5,389 nt of DNA from Bacteroidota bacterium (GTDB lineage Bacteria > Bacteroidota > Rhodothermia > Rhodothermales > UBA10348). Shown here in pieces: positions 1-5,389 of this stretch (position 1 is its first letter; every line of letters starts with the position of its first letter). The notes beneath the pieces were generated by a model. That model was given only the letters and a program-made list of their open reading frames with translations, made no database searches and had not been told where the DNA came from. The DNA lies in NCBI GenBank assembly GCA_004356385.1, contig SMXL01000164.1:1-5389 (forward strand), read 5' to 3'. Position numbers and translations under genes: made by a program.

Positions 1-621
1 ATAATGGATGGCCAAAAGCCCACCTACGACGGTCGTTCCGACCGCTACATAATCGATCCATTTCAAATTTCGCGTGGACCCCCTTATTCCGATTCGCAGC
101 AACGGGTCCATCTGTTCAACAGACTCAAGCAGCACCAGGTGTCGATTCCAGATCTCGTCCCCCGGCTCTACCCGCCTCGTCACATACCCGGCTCGATCAA
201 ATATCAGTTCACCCTGTAAAGGTGCGTCAGAGACGTAGTCCAGCGGCGACGTTCCCAGGTGACTCCGAATCGTTCCATCTGTCTGGTAGATATCAACTCC
301 TGACGGTACCGTTTCGAGGCGGTAGTAGTACGGGAAATTGAGCTTAACCGTTAGAGTATCCAGTTCGCTCTCTTCGAGTTGCTGCGAAATCGCTGGTACC
401 GACCATACGTCGGCCGAGCGAGGCACCAGTATTAACTTTTCGGTACTGGCCGGAATCTGAAAAACAGATCTCTCCGCAGTTCCGAGCCAGGTTGAATCCG
501 CATAGACAAAGGAATCGATTTGATTGGTCTCCAACTTGACCCATCTTACCTGTGCCCATGCAGTAGTGCTGGCGCCCATCATAAGCAACGCAATAAGGAA
601 GCGTTTACAGAGATTGTTCAT
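1..621 (-). CDS. Exported PEGA-domain protein, C-terminus cut by the window edge
   Basis: An open frame of 207 codons runs from an ATG at 619-621 to the left edge without a stop, so the C-terminal end is missing. The start is chosen because an AGGAGG lies 6 nt upstream and because it gives a clean signal peptide: Lys6/Arg7, a hydrophobic core at residues 8-18, and a likely cleavage after Ala23 (AWA|QV). Residues about 100-165 fit a PEGA domain: a strand ending in VPSGVDIYQTDG, then LGTSPL (122-126) and an AGY turn (144-146) before the last strand. Residues 36-66 (FVYADSTWLGTAERS region) look like a second, weaker copy. Residues 190-206 are hydrophobic and could be a membrane segment, which would place the rest beyond it. 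PEGA domains are small beta-sandwich modules found in surface and envelope proteins; their ligand is usually unknown. The gene overlaps the lipoprotein gene by 17 bp, so it is probably in the same operon. The domain call is from pattern recognition only. Confidence 0.82.
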   Translation of the reverse strand, partial: MNNLCKRFLIALLMMGASTTAWAQVRWVKLETNQIDSFVYADSTWLGTAERSVFQIPASTEKLILVPRSADVWSVPAISQQLEESELDTLTVKLNFPYYYRLETVPSGVDIYQTDGTIRSHLGTSPLDYVSDAPLQGELIFDRAGYVTRRVEPGDEIWNRHLVLLESVEQMDPLLRIGIRGSTRNLKWIDYVAVGTTVVGGLLAIHY

Positions 622-1798
622 TCACAACCTCCTCTCTGAAACTGTAGATGTAGCGTGGTTCTGTGAGAACAATGAGTTCCCCTTCTCTCGCTGACATGGC
701 TGATTTGATCCGCCCTTTCAATTTCGTTTCCCACACCAAATTTCCGGTTGATCGGTCAAGGCCATAAAGCATTCGACCCATGGTCCCCACATAAATATGA
801 GAGTCGGTAATGAGGGGCGCCGCTGTGATGGCGTCTGGACCGTTGAACTGCCATTCTATGATTCCAGTACCGGAATTGAGCGCGAATAGGGTTCCACTCG
901 ACGTTCCGACATAAATAATTGAACCGTCGGTTGCCGGGGAGGCGAATCGAATATGCTCATCTTTCCTGACGAACGTCCAGTTCGAAGACCCGTCGATCGA
1001 AGATATCGCATGAAGTCGACCGCGAGTTGTGGGAACCAGAATTTGATCTCCATCGGCTGTCGGGGAAGCATAGACCGGATCCCCGAGATCGGAGAGCCAG
1101 ATTTGGTCACCCGTCACCGCGTCGTACATGAATGCGACTCCCTTATCGGATACCACAAACATCCTATTGCCGCTCAGGAGAAGAGGCGATGCTTTAACCG
1201 TAACACCGTCGCCTAGTTTTTCGATCCAGTAAGGAGCGCCCGTATCCTTGTTAAACGACCGAATGTTGCCTTCTACGTCGACCGCAACGAGAGCGGTGTC
1301 CACTTCGATGGGAGTTGTTTCGAATGGAATTCCCTTGATTCTCCACGCCGTTGTGCCGGTCGTTAAATCGTATGCGGTTAGCACATATTTTCCCCACGCA
1401 TGAGCGGCATAAAGTACCCCGTTACTGATGAGAATTGAGCCTTCTACGGCTTCACCCAGGTTCTTCACCCCGATGCTTCTTCCCGTCTCGATATCCACCG
1501 CGTGTAGTTCTCCTTTTCTGGTTCCCACGATGACAGCATCATGATATAGAAGCGGAGACCCTGTCCCGAATGCAGCATTTGCGTTGTATAACCAAGCACG
1601 CTCAAGGGGCGGTTCGACGCGCACGTTCACAAGTCGCTCACGTCCATTGCTGGCCCCGTCGACCAGCCAATCGCCACTTCGAGCGTTTCGAGAGCCATCC
1701 AGTTTCAGAGTATTGCAACCGGTGCTCACGATCGTCGCGACAACGAGAACGAAAATGTATGTATAAATTTTATGCCGGATATTTCGTTTTCGCCTCAC
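605..1798 (-). CDS. BamB-like lipoprotein with PQQ-type eight-blade beta-propeller
   Basis: This 397-residue protein starts at a GTG (1796-1798) and has a basic N-terminus (MRRKRNIRHK), a hydrophobic stretch at residues 11-24 and a lipobox-like STGC with Cys28 as the probable lipidated residue. The +2 residue is Asn, not Asp, which would be compatible with outer-membrane sorting if the enterobacterial rule holds here. The mature part is a row of PQQ-type repeats with the signature aDxxTGxxxW: turns near residues 102-106, 144-151, 183-191, 225-234, 267-274, 309-316 and 348-356, with a closing strand near 382-388. That gives about eight blades, as in BamB, and the length matches E. coli BamB (about 392). 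The first repeat lacks the usual tryptophan. BamB binds the BamA barrel protein in outer-membrane assembly; a similar scaffold role here is inferred from the Omp85-like gene 5 bp upstream. No good Shine-Dalgarno is visible, so it is probably translationally coupled to that gene. True orthology to BamB is not established. Confidence 0.88.
   Translation of the reverse strand: MRRKRNIRHKIYTYIFVLVVATIVSTGCNTLKLDGSRNARSGDWLVDGASNGRERLVNVRVEPPLERAWLYNANAAFGTGSPLLYHDAVIVGTRKGELHAVDIETGRSIGVKNLGEAVEGSILISNGVLYAAHAWGKYVLTAYDLTTGTTAWRIKGIPFETTPIEVDTALVAVDVEGNIRSFNKDTGAPYWIEKLGDGVTVKASPLLLSGNRMFVVSDKGVAFMYDAVTGDQIWLSDLGDPVYASPTADGDQILVPTTRGRLHAISSIDGSSNWTFVRKDEHIRFASPATDGSIIYVGTSSGTLFALNSGTGIIEWQFNGPDAITAAPLITDSHIYVGTMGRMLYGLDRSTGNLVWETKLKGRIKSAMSAREGELIVLTEPRYIYSFREEVVNEQSL
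628..633 (-). promoter_or_regulatory. Strong Shine-Dalgarno site for the PEGA gene
   Basis: The minus strand reads AGGAGG followed by TTGTGA and then ATG, a 6-nt spacing. The site lies inside the last codons of the lipoprotein gene (Glu389-Val391), so translation of the PEGA gene begins before the preceding gene ends. It decides the start of the PEGA gene. It is the only strong ribosome binding site in the three-gene operon. Confidence 0.85.
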
Positions 1799-1803
1799 GC
1801 TCG

Positions 1804-4776
1804 TTAAAAGTCGAATCCGAAGAAGAATTGCCGGAAGCGCTTGTCCATTTCTTTAAAGCCATCCCGATATCTGAGTCCGATATCATAGCGCAAAACCAAA
1901 ACCCCGAAAATATTTATTCGAAATCCATACCCGATCGCACCAATGGTTTCACCGGCATTGATTTCTGGGCGCGGATTATGGTACTTCTCATTCCAGGCAT
2001 GGGCTGCGTCGAAAAATACAGCGCCCCTCAAATTCGCAATGCCGAACGGAGCAAGAATGGGTAGGATGATAGAAGGTGAGTTCAACAGCGGGAAACGAAA
2101 TTCGTGAGAGGTAAACCAGATTTTTTGCCCGCGTACGTCGAATAGATGAAATCCCCGGATATCCCAAGAGCCTCCCATGACAAACAGACGGGCCTCTTTA
2201 CCGTGGTTCATCCTTCCCATTACCCAGGAGGCCAGCGTATAGTCCCTCCCCAATCGGATATAGTGACGAAAATCTGCAGTTAGGGTGTAGTAACTCACGT
2301 TTGAATACTGAATATCAGTCGTATAGGCCGCTGACACTTTAGCCCGCCATCCCTGGATGGGGCCGTTCATCCAATAGATCGACTTGTCTTGAATGAACGA
2401 AACCGAATTGGAAAGAAGAAGAGCTTGCCTGTCAATTCGTTCTACTGCTATCTCCTTGCGACTCCAGTTAAACGAAGTTGAAAACTCGAAACGGGTGAAC
2501 TTGGAAAGCGGGTAACTGACTTGACCAAAGCCACCGTAAATAGACTCGAAAAATATGGGTAGCGCTGCGGGAGCGTCTGGATCAGTCAAGTCGTACCTGC
2601 GCCCAGAATAGCGATATACACCGTAGCCAATGTTGGCTCTTTTTTTAAGCTGAACCCTCGCCAACTGAAAACTCAGGTCTTGAAGAAATCCGCGTCCTGA
2701 AAGTCCGGAATTGAATATCGTCAAGTACAAGTAATCGTCTCCCATAATATCAGAAAAAGCCAGGATTCCCCCACCCGTGGTCCCCAGAACGGCGCTCTGA
2801 CTGACCATCCCTTGAGCAATGTCAAGGCGAAAGCGTTTTCTGAATGGCGCTCTCGACGCCCCCTCTCCGATCTTGAGACTGTTGAATTTCCAAGATGCAC
2901 CTGCCTTCGTCAGATCGGCAAACTGCTCTCGGCGCGGTGCGCGAACCAGCGAGTCTGCCCGTTCAAGCTGTCGAATGGAAAAGCTCAATCCTTCGAAACT
3001 CGTAAAAAGGATTCGATCGTCTTTGGTCCAAACCGGGTCGTATGCTGCAGCCGCGAGCTGTGTAATTTTTTTCATGCTTCGCCAGGCAGGCTCAGCGCTC
3101 GGAGCAGGGCCACGACTGATCGAAGCCACGGACGGTCTGGTGCCCAAGACGTAACTCATATCGGCCACCCAAACGTCCTGTGCACCGTAGCGGCCCGTTG
3201 AGTCCTGAACCGCGCTCGTATACAAAATGTGATTCCCGTCGGGGCTCCACGACGGCGAATAATCCAGCCGCTTTCCGAACGTAACGTAGCGGATCCTTCC
3301 ATCGTCGACCCCATACGTAAAAATGTTATACGACCCGGTGTTACCGGTCGTCGTTCGATCCGAAGAAAAGGCGATTTTTGTCCCATCCGGACTCCATGAC
3401 GGGTCGCGATCGTCGTACTGATCGTCGGTCAACTGCTGGAGCTCCCGGCGATCAATATGAAAGATGTATAGATCGCTAAACCCCGCCGCATCGATGGAAG
3501 AAAAAGTAAATCGCGTGCCATCAGGACTCCAACTCGGGGAGTAAACTGCCACGAGATCGTCAAACCCGAATGTTTCGTCGAACTGATCCGTTTCGAGGTC
3601 ATAGACATGAACCACATCATGTCCCCCACTCTTGGTCACAAAGGCAAGTTTCCCTTCGTTAGAAACAGCCAGCCTGCTCTCAAAAAGATGAAATGATTCA
3701 AACCGGTCATTCCGTCCACCACTGATCAAAACTTTGGGTTCTTCGAGCGGCCTGTAATCCTCGTCGACTTCCAATGCATAGACGTTTGAAAGCCCACTTC
3801 GATTACCCACGAAGAACAGCTTTCGTGTACCATCTTTAAATTGGTAAAACGTCGGTTTGGCGTTGAATCCCTCGGTTGACAAACCGTCCGTAATCAGAGA
3901 CGGTAGATCGATAGTGAGCAACTCCGGATAGTATTGCTTTTTGAGCCAGCTCAACCATTGGGAAGACACGTCTTCGAACTTCTGACCTGTGGTCAACTCG
4001 ATCGTAACACGGAAGTCGGAATCCTTCCAAAAGTTGTCCAGGAGATCTAGCAGTTTCTCTTCTCCATATTCCTCAGCAAGAAACCGGCAAAATGCTTCAC
4101 CCTGTTTGTACATCACGAATGATCCCCGGATGCGATACATGCTCTCGAGCGGTACCAGGTAGTTCGTATACAAAGCATCTCGAATCACCATTTCATGTTG
4201 AGCGTCGGGCTCGCCGGACCAGTATTCTGCCAATCCTTCGGTGAACCAAAGCGGCAGAAACCGCTCTACCTGCTTCCTGTGGTCCAGCAGGACCCGGAGC
4301 ACCTTGTTGTACATGAAGACATGCACCATCTCGTGGCGAATCACCCGACGGAATCGGTGCAGGTTACCATTGGCGGGGATGACGACGCGTCCTTTCAGAA
4401 ACTCGAAAAACCCTCCCACTCCGTCTGGTATGAATCCAGGGGTAACGTTGGTCTGTTTGAAATGAAGATTTGACGAGTAGAAAACAACCGGAACGCGATG
4501 ATTTAGCGAGAAATTGAATCGGTTCTGTAGCTCCGAATAGGCTTCTTCAGCGAAAAATGCCCCGTGCTCGGCGAGCTCCAGCATCTCCGGATAATAATAG
4601 ATGTCGAAATGATCCGTCTTGAGGACTTTCCAGTCGAAATAATCGTACTGAATCTTGTTGTGGCCAAAGTAGTAGCCGCTATACTGACCGAAACTCGGGG
4701 TTGTAGCGATTCCGAACACCAGTGACATAACAGCAAAGGCGATGCCCTTGCGGATATAGAAAGGGATTACTGGCAA
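1804..4776 (-). CDS. Fusion of HExxH peptidase-MA-like domain, TolB/PD40 propeller and Omp85-like barrel
   Basis: This 990-residue exported protein has four parts. Residues 1-30 form a signal peptide (Arg9, Lys10, hydrophobic core 11-26, likely cleavage after Gly30). Residues about 45-285 resemble peptidase MA family gluzincins: HEMVH at 148-152 supplies two zinc ligands and the catalytic Glu149, and WFTEGLAEYW at 177-186 supplies a likely third ligand, Glu180; the GEAFCRFLAEEYGEE helix (226-240) also fits. Residues about 315-605 form a TolB-like propeller with three clear PD40 repeats (WSPDG at 416, 461 and 510) and about three degenerate blades. Residues about 650-990 are beta-rich and end in an Omp85-type barrel: GGSWDIRGF (868-876) matches the VRGF/Y motif of BamA loop 6, and the chain ends in FFFGFDF, a typical aromatic outer-membrane targeting end. 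No POTRA domain is recognisable. The N-terminal domains should sit in the periplasm and the barrel in the outer membrane. The start is a TTG (4774-4776) with no clear Shine-Dalgarno; the next ATG, codon 17, would truncate the signal peptide. Its substrate is unknown. Confidence 0.87.
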   Translation of the reverse strand: MPVIPFYIRKGIAFAVMSLVFGIATTPSFGQYSGYYFGHNKIQYDYFDWKVLKTDHFDIYYYPEMLELAEHGAFFAEEAYSELQNRFNFSLNHRVPVVFYSSNLHFKQTNVTPGFIPDGVGGFFEFLKGRVVIPANGNLHRFRRVIRHEMVHVFMYNKVLRVLLDHRKQVERFLPLWFTEGLAEYWSGEPDAQHEMVIRDALYTNYLVPLESMYRIRGSFVMYKQGEAFCRFLAEEYGEEKLLDLLDNFWKDSDFRVTIELTTGQKFEDVSSQWLSWLKKQYYPELLTIDLPSLITDGLSTEGFNAKPTFYQFKDGTRKLFFVGNRSGLSNVYALEVDEDYRPLEEPKVLISGGRNDRFESFHLFESRLAVSNEGKLAFVTKSGGHDVVHVYDLETDQFDETFGFDDLVAVYSPSWSPDGTRFTFSSIDAAGFSDLYIFHIDRRELQQLTDDQYDDRDPSWSPDGTKIAFSSDRTTTGNTGSYNIFTYGVDDGRIRYVTFGKRLDYSPSWSPDGNHILYTSAVQDSTGRYGAQDVWVADMSYVLGTRPSVASISRGPAPSAEPAWRSMKKITQLAAAAYDPVWTKDDRILFTSFEGLSFSIRQLERADSLVRAPRREQFADLTKAGASWKFNSLKIGEGASRAPFRKRFRLDIAQGMVSQSAVLGTTGGGILAFSDIMGDDYLYLTIFNSGLSGRGFLQDLSFQLARVQLKKRANIGYGVYRYSGRRYDLTDPDAPAALPIFFESIYGGFGQVSYPLSKFTRFEFSTSFNWSRKEIAVERIDRQALLLSNSVSFIQDKSIYWMNGPIQGWRAKVSAAYTTDIQYSNVSYYTLTADFRHYIRLGRDYTLASWVMGRMNHGKEARLFVMGGSWDIRGFHLFDVRGQKIWFTSHEFRFPLLNSPSIILPILAPFGIANLRGAVFFDAAHAWNEKYHNPRPEINAGETIGAIGYGFRINIFGVLVLRYDIGLRYRDGFKEMDKRFRQFFFGFDF

Positions 4777-4971: not shown

Positions 4972-5389
4972 CTATGTCGACGAATCGGGGCTATTCAGGA
5001 AGAACGAGACACCGCTTGCGTGTTCGTCGAGCCACTGGTCCAGGATCTCATTAATTTCGGCTACACTTCCCGACTCCAGCGCCTTGGCGGCAAGCTCTTT
5101 TCCCTCGGTGAGTGTCATGGCCCGAATCACTCTTTTGATCGACGGTAGATACACAGGAGACGCACTCAACGTTTGCACGCCCAGACCAATAAGGACAGGC
5201 ACGGCTCTCAGATTGGTCGCCATTTCACCACATAGGCTCACGGGAATATTGGCCCGCACGCCTGCCTCAACCGTCATTTGAATCATCTGCAGTACGGCGG
5301 GATGCATATCCTCGTACAACTCGGACACCAGGTCGTTACCCCGGTCCACTGCAAGCGTGTACTGGGTAAGATCATTCGTTCCAATCGAA
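4972..5389 (-). CDS. ptsI: Phosphoenolpyruvate-protein phosphotransferase (PTS enzyme I), C-terminal part
   Basis: The visible 139 codons are the end of enzyme I, which takes the phosphate from phosphoenolpyruvate and passes it through its own histidine to HPr, the first step of the sugar phosphotransferase system in the cytoplasm. The fragment begins with SIGTNDLTQYTLAVDRGN, the PEP-binding signature of the C-terminal TIM-barrel domain. The Asn and Arg of that motif correspond to Asn454 and Arg465 of the E. coli enzyme. SLCGEMA follows, and its Cys (codon 5230-5232) lies 48 residues after the Asn, exactly as catalytic Cys502 does in E. coli. The tail is about 13 residues longer than in E. 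coli. The N-terminal HPr-binding and phosphohistidine domains lie beyond the right edge, so the true start is not in the window; an in-frame GTG at 5349 is only the Val of the VDRGN motif. A paralogue such as PtsP cannot be excluded from the C-terminus alone. The 195-bp gap downstream suggests it is not part of the envelope operon. Confidence 0.95.
   Translation of the reverse strand, partial: SIGTNDLTQYTLAVDRGNDLVSELYEDMHPAVLQMIQMTVEAGVRANIPVSLCGEMATNLRAVPVLIGLGVQTLSASPVYLPSIKRVIRAMTLTEGKELAAKALESGSVAEINEILDQWLDEHASGVSFFLNSPDSST

Follow-up and report, generated by a model that had tools for sequence, protein, structure and literature searches.

What could a bacterium use a single polypeptide for that combines a metallopeptidase domain, a TolB-like beta-propeller and an Omp85-type barrel? 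The question is raised by a gene on contig SMXL01000164.1 of a Rhodothermales genome from the phylum Bacteroidota (assembly GCA_004356385.1), within a stretch of 5,389 nucleotides that was analysed as a whole and is called the window here. The fusion protein encoded by this gene belongs to a real, well supported and widespread family, and we tentatively propose that it is a protease held in the outer membrane, where it would work beside BamA.

Domain architecture of the fusion protein

Pfam profiles and the AlphaFold2 model concur on the peptidase, the propeller and the barrel, the three parts that an earlier note on this DNA had read from the letters of one open frame (Table 1). PD40 matched at E 1.3e-22, Omp85 at E 1.1e-12 (residues 806-988) and Peptidase_MA_2 at E 1.2e-9 (residues 136-279), each beyond its own Pfam cut-off, in a scan that allowed E values up to 10 and in which the HMMER filters remove most matches above 0.1. 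The motifs lie at the residues and spacings first given for them: HEMVH at residue 148, the single HExxH of the whole chain; WFTEGLAEYW at 177; WSPDG at 416, 461 and 510, spaced by 45 and 49 residues; and IRGF at 873, ahead of a C-terminus that reads FRQFFFGFDF. The model has a helix at residues 5-23, and Gln31 is shared by 98% or more of the 121 sequences aligned (the window protein and 120 listed relatives); residues 1-30 are probably a signal peptide, with the mature chain running from Gln31. Comparison of the fusion gene with its nearest locus (L001) gave a dN of 0.075, with dS saturated at about 4. Like the Pfam matches and the close relatives described below, this indicates more than a chance arrangement.

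The propeller is TolB-like in the model, with TolB as its best match, and its blades were read as six. The model has 16 strands after residue 649, as in Omp85-type barrels, and the best fold matches of this part are BamA and TamA. Both predictions agree with the six-blade propeller and the closed barrel of 12-16 strands after residue 650 that had been expected. IRGF corresponds to the RG[F/Y] motif of loop 6 in Omp85 proteins, and its arginine (R874) is found in 71 of 72 aligned rows of the window's own type, the remaining row having a gap. No POTRA domain was found in the chain by Pfam, and just 35 residues separate propeller and barrel. In that scan the fusion protein shows no sign of the one or more POTRA domains by which the abstract of a study of PlpD delimits Omp85 proteins (PMC11116518); a review section accepts Omp85 types without them (PMC4104836). 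All NCBIfam matches of the chain fell far under their cut-offs (TolB, TIGR02800, 104.5 bits against 343.15; BamA, TIGR03303, 28.5 bits against 297.15; a general Omp85 model, 26.3 bits).

Table 1. Coordinates of the fusion gene, its parts and its neighbours in the window.
Feature	Coordinates	Strand	Basis or remark
Peptidase-propeller-Omp85 fusion gene	1804..4776	-	990 amino acids, TTG start
Probable signal peptide, residues 1-30	4687..4776	-	Model helix 5-23; Q31 conservation
Gluzincin (clan MA) metallopeptidase domain, residues 46-288	3913..4641	-	Peptidase_MA_2; predicted fold matches M9, M30, M1
HEMVH, residues 148-152, probable zinc ligands and catalytic Glu	4321..4335	-	Invariance
Glu180 in WFTEGLAEYW, probable third zinc ligand	4237..4239	-	Invariance
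TolB-like beta-propeller, residues 293-613, three WSPDG repeats	2938..3900	-	
16-strand Omp85 barrel, residues 649-990	1807..2832	-	
IRGF, residues 873-876, between strands 11 and 12, by count in extracellular loop 6	2149..2160	-	
BamB-like PQQ-repeat propeller, possible lipoprotein (cysteine in ATIVSTGC)	605..1798	-	PQQ_2/BamB E 3.8e-41
PEGA-like protein, probably secreted, C-terminal hydrophobic segment, truncated by window edge	1..621	-	
ptsI C-terminus (PTS enzyme I), upstream neighbour	4972..5388	-	Pfam and NCBIfam

Conservation of the peptidase and its zinc site

The residues H148, E149, H152 and E180 are invariant in every set of relatives that was aligned: in the 121 sequences mentioned above, in 64 of 64 sequences (including Ignavibacteria) of an alignment that drew on 63 of 78 usable loci, in all 72 short-type rows (the window and 71 open reading frames, or ORFs, retained for exceeding 850 amino acids out of 77 at 76 loci) and in 11 of 11 proteins of a longer type described below; these sets overlap. 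Such an HExxH motif with a downstream glutamate is the signature of gluzincins (clan MA), and from this conservation H148, H152 and E180 are the probable zinc ligands and E149 the probable catalytic glutamate. The earlier note had expected a zinc site at these positions, and at the level of helix placement the model agrees: H148, E149 and H152 are predicted to lie on a helix next to that of E180 in a gluzincin-like fold.

The peptidase was also modelled separately, because the fold list for the whole-chain model barely probed it. Folded alone, the predicted domain aligns with M9, M30 and M1 peptidases; the closest solved folds include bacterial collagenases (M9) and the M30 lugdulysin, at 12-16% identity, and a sequence profile compared with solved structures matched collagenases only weakly (E 0.045 and 0.29). 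The collagenases and lugdulysin are secreted enzymes and, to our knowledge, have no barrel.

Sequence comparison identifies the peptidase as the best-conserved part of the chain. Among the 71 short-type relatives its median identity to the window is 69.5%, against 51.4% for the propeller and 58.5% for the barrel, and the corresponding values for the 11 longer relatives are 33.1%, 25.1% and 25.4%. This conservation and the invariance of the zinc-site residues suggest that proteolysis is under selection, an indication that falls short of proof of activity, and we infer that the domain is an active protease. A degenerate peptidase in relatives that carry no Pfam tag for it was considered and rejected for the five inspected (P0012, P0014, P0016, P0026 and P0030), all of which retain the site.

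Distribution of the family

Of the 7,997 candidates that a protein search scored, 3,610 were relatives at E 1e-10, and the 120 listed share 57-89% identity with the fusion protein over 94-100% of its length. Several of these 120, from Rhodothermales or Bacteroidetes, are named 'BamA/TamA family outer membrane protein'. Nearly all of them (P0001-P0120) bear precomputed PF26549 and PF26550 assignments; neither came up when the window protein was scanned with Pfam. A scan of named genomes retained 80 of 82 loci, with titles such as Rhodothermales, Bacteroidetes, Ignavibacteria and similar, and one titled Ectothiorhodospiraceae (L044).

A sample of 198 genomes, spread evenly over the phylum to which Roseithermus (G001) belongs, was also searched, with a completeness limit set and completeness not reported for these genomes. 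At least 191 of them had some match at E 0.001 and at least 45 a strong one (best E ≤ 1e-165). Among the matches listed, both halves of the chain were covered in these 45 (through two contigs in G070), and the next best genome followed at E 7.7e-99. None of the 71 matching plasmid records, among 72,556, covered 80% of the fusion query; the best, a Salinibacter plasmid, reached 49%.

Comparison with known proteins

The architecture is already half-described. The WD40-Omp85 subfamily of Heinz and Lithgow (2014; PMC4104836) has, like the fusion protein, an N-terminal TolB-like propeller and an Omp85 barrel without POTRA, and was called reminiscent of a BamA-BamB fusion; the section devoted to it reports no experiment and names no peptidase, whereas the fusion protein has one. 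The 'Metallo' subfamily of the same paper is PF00149, a different domain. The expectation that comparable architectures occur with no characterised function thus holds, the propeller-Omp85 part having been published in 2014, and among the open-licence literature matches listed no study of the function of this architecture was found beyond that paper. If its members carry the same peptidase, the fusion protein would be a plain WD40-Omp85 member.

With BamA and TamA the fusion protein shares the predicted 16-strand barrel fold, the loop-6 RGF motif and an aromatic C-terminus; it differs from them in having no listed POTRA, in its additional peptidase and propeller, and in existing beside BamA. 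In each of the 15 genomes searched a separate BamA was identified, in 14 of them above the TIGR03303 cut-off and in one, G015, as two pieces on different contigs with the better piece slightly under it. The fusion protein is therefore not the cell's BamA, and its identification as a fused BamA was rejected. Nor is it a TolB, since the Pfam scan lists no TolB N-terminal domain (PF04052) for the chain, which also scores far under the TolB model and, unlike TolB, would not be free in the periplasm. That N-terminal domain occurs in three of the 15 genomes (G006, G010 and G011), only in frames of 1,037-1,140 amino acids, and no TolB-sized protein with it was found among the 15. Of the fused BAM, Tol and BepA machine envisaged in the earlier note, the joining of three domains stands, and the BamA and TolB identities do not.

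PlpD likewise places an enzyme domain ahead of an Omp85 barrel, but according to its abstract this domain is patatin-like and is accompanied by POTRA, where the fusion protein has a protease and a propeller (PMC11116518). BamP of the Flavobacterium BAM was considered as the same protein and rejected: it consists of two folded domains and a linker, and the main text describing it contains neither 'propeller' nor 'peptidase' (PMC12611786). The word 'propeller' is also absent from the main text of the TamL paper (PMC12045153).

Gene neighbourhood of the short type

Only 5 bases separate the fusion gene from the called start of the BamB-like gene, whose last 17 bases are shared with the PEGA-like gene, so that a single transcript is likely. 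Neighbours of these two kinds and ptsI were counted by tblastn, independently of the ORF caller and only at loci with room for them; loci whose best segment is 46% or more identical to the window, a line specific to this analysis, are termed Rhodothermia-like. The BamB-like gene comes next after the fusion gene at 44 of 44 Rhodothermia-like loci and at 6 of 23 more distant ones, and the PEGA-like gene follows it at 40 of 42 and 0 of 19, respectively. Within 3.5 kb upstream, ptsI was found at 30 of 49 Rhodothermia-like and 6 of 18 more distant loci, and it is probably not part of the module functionally.

Like BamB, the first neighbour encodes a PQQ-repeat propeller, but its score with the BamB model TIGR03300 (134.9 bits, E 2.7e-39) is under the cut-off of 285.2. 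This cut-off was passed in none of the 15 genomes searched, and in the 11 of them that are Rhodothermia-like the top match to the model was the fusion gene's neighbour (11 of 11, by comparison of positions). TamB was present in all 15; in G001-G012 its distance from the fusion gene was 98 kb or more, unless the two lay on separate contigs. The PEGA-like piece in the window had no Pfam or NCBIfam match, and the PEGA match of its orthologue at L001 is weak (E 0.023, under the cut-off); a third subunit is a possible role for this protein.

Other neighbours were counted with the ORF caller, which loses real genes in GC-rich loci (the paralogue of L092, the fusion gene of L082), and these counts are lower bounds: a YqeY-like gene at no fewer than 21 of 80 loci, a CvpA-like gene at 33 or more and a phosphoglucose isomerase-like gene at 24 or more. 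The last (bact-PGI_C; for example L023, 3675-4745) stands directly upstream of the fusion gene in the loci inspected.

Longer paralogues

Many weaker matches in the 198-genome scan come from frames of roughly 1,050-1,150 amino acids and extend over approximately residues 7-523 of the model. By sequence, the peptidase-propeller part exists as a short type, that of the window, and as longer paralogues, and genomes G018 and G023 hold both together. All 11 longer proteins aligned have the zinc site, and the RG motif retains its arginine in 11 and its glycine in 10. Some longer proteins clearly resemble the window in the barrel (domain E as low as 8.9e-22, for L086), and L087, L093 and L094 do so weakly; Pfam returned no Omp85 match in L090 at E 0.001, and no NCBIfam Omp85 or BamA model matched L086 or L087. 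The longer paralogues probably carry a diverged barrel, an assignment less firm than for the window because it rests on similarity to the window's own barrel.

The loci retrieved as longer paralogues numbered 32; 28 of them best match one sub-type and three another (L087, L093 and L094), and the gene of L092 was lost by the ORF caller. The 28 were hand-picked from high-scoring matches, and many are closely related, so that the counts made on them are not independent. ORF calling gave the gene order TamB-like, RNase R, longer paralogue in at least 21 of the 28, and a convergent type IX secretion plug gene after the paralogue in at least 15. The loci with the plug-gene arrangement are L084, L089, L090, L091, L101-L105, L108, L109, L111-L113 and L115. 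Among six TamB-like neighbours searched with Pfam, TamB was found in L095 and L106, only DUF748 or AsmA in L107 and L110, and no match in L084 and L090. In NCBIfam, the L090 neighbour matches TamB weakly, at 26.6 bits where the cut-off is 825, and the L090/L084 profile aligns with that of L095/L099 at 99.4% probability. The third paralogue type (L087, L093 and L094) comprises proteins of about 1,040-1,140 amino acids that keep the zinc site and an FVRGY motif and end in a tryptophan.

A proposed role and its alternatives

The reading that we favour, while placing it somewhat short of probable, is that the fusion protein is an outer-membrane-anchored, periplasm-facing zinc protease of a POTRA-less Omp85 sub-type, with a role in outer-membrane assembly or quality control beside BamA. 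The chain would be exported by the Sec pathway and its 16-strand barrel would reside in the outer membrane, with the peptidase and the TolB-like propeller hanging into the periplasm, the side indicated by the even strand number. The propeller and the BamB-like neighbour would probably recruit client proteins or partner complexes, or keep them in place, and cleavage of the clients would fall to the peptidase; such clients could be outer-membrane proteins that have stalled or misfolded, or a precursor in need of processing. BepA is an M48 periplasmic zinc protease at BAM, and it may be the functional analogue, as both would be zinc proteases acting at the outer membrane; BepA belongs to another peptidase family, has TPR instead of a propeller and lacks a barrel. 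The fusion protein would thus resemble BepA and BamB mounted on an Omp85 base, accompanying BamA and not replacing it. The three domains, the conserved residues of the zinc site, the neighbouring genes and the separate BamA are computational results, whereas we infer export, periplasmic topology, a complex with the BamB-like protein and a substrate; the last two are the weakest links of this mechanism.

Much of the same evidence would be consistent with a BamA/TamA-like factor for the assembly or insertion of special clients, in which the propeller takes the place of POTRA and the peptidase has a minor clean-up task. The fold matches of the barrel to BamA and TamA, the loop-6 motif, the constant BamB-like neighbour and the paralogue near a TamB-like gene all point in this direction. 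However, the Pfam scan found no POTRA, and the part under the strongest conservation is the peptidase and not the barrel; we regard such a factor as rather unlikely.

PlpD was once thought to export its enzyme domain to the surface. By a similar route, the barrel of the fusion protein could deliver the peptidase and the propeller through the outer membrane, and these would digest external proteins or process those of the surface, as might be expected of an Omp85 barrel in one chain with a domain whose nearest solved folds are those of collagenases and lugdulysin. Yet 16 strands would place both barrel ends in the periplasm, the PlpD enzyme domain is described in its abstract as exclusively periplasmic (PMC11116518), and no obvious release region, for which no dedicated test was run, was seen in the 35-residue stretch that joins propeller to barrel. 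Surface display thus seems to us quite improbable. Least credible by far is a substitute for TolB in a Tol-Pal-like system, whose propeller would bind Pal-like OmpA-family lipoproteins and tether the outer membrane to peptidoglycan: TolB is the propeller's best match and no ordinary-sized TolB was seen, but the chain has no listed counterpart of the N-terminal domain that contacts TolA in the textbook system, and PD40 propellers are common in unrelated proteins.

Implications for the Bacteroidota outer membrane

The outer membrane of Bacteroidota is built by heavily altered machinery, as described in a 2025 study (PMC12611786). The periplasmic protease and propeller on their Omp85 barrel might represent a third outer-membrane machine of this phylum beside BAM and TAM, with a BamB-like lipoprotein as partner (TamB and the type IX secretion plug for the longer paralogue), that sorts, processes or destroys outer-membrane and surface proteins, although we hold this broader picture to be doubtful.

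The fusion protein extends the picture of the WD40-Omp85 type, in whose published section no enzyme is described. To this type our analysis adds the invariant zinc site, the conservation of the peptidase, the linkage to BamB-like and PEGA-like genes, and that of the paralogue to TamB-like and RNase R genes; the peptidase and the BamB-like and TamB-like links are new relative to the 2014 description because its section on the subfamily lacks them (PMC4104836). A widely kept protease with an intact catalytic site, carried on an Omp85 barrel and encoded beside BamB-like genes and, in a paralogue, TamB-like ones, is a testable candidate for outer-membrane quality control in Bacteroidota.
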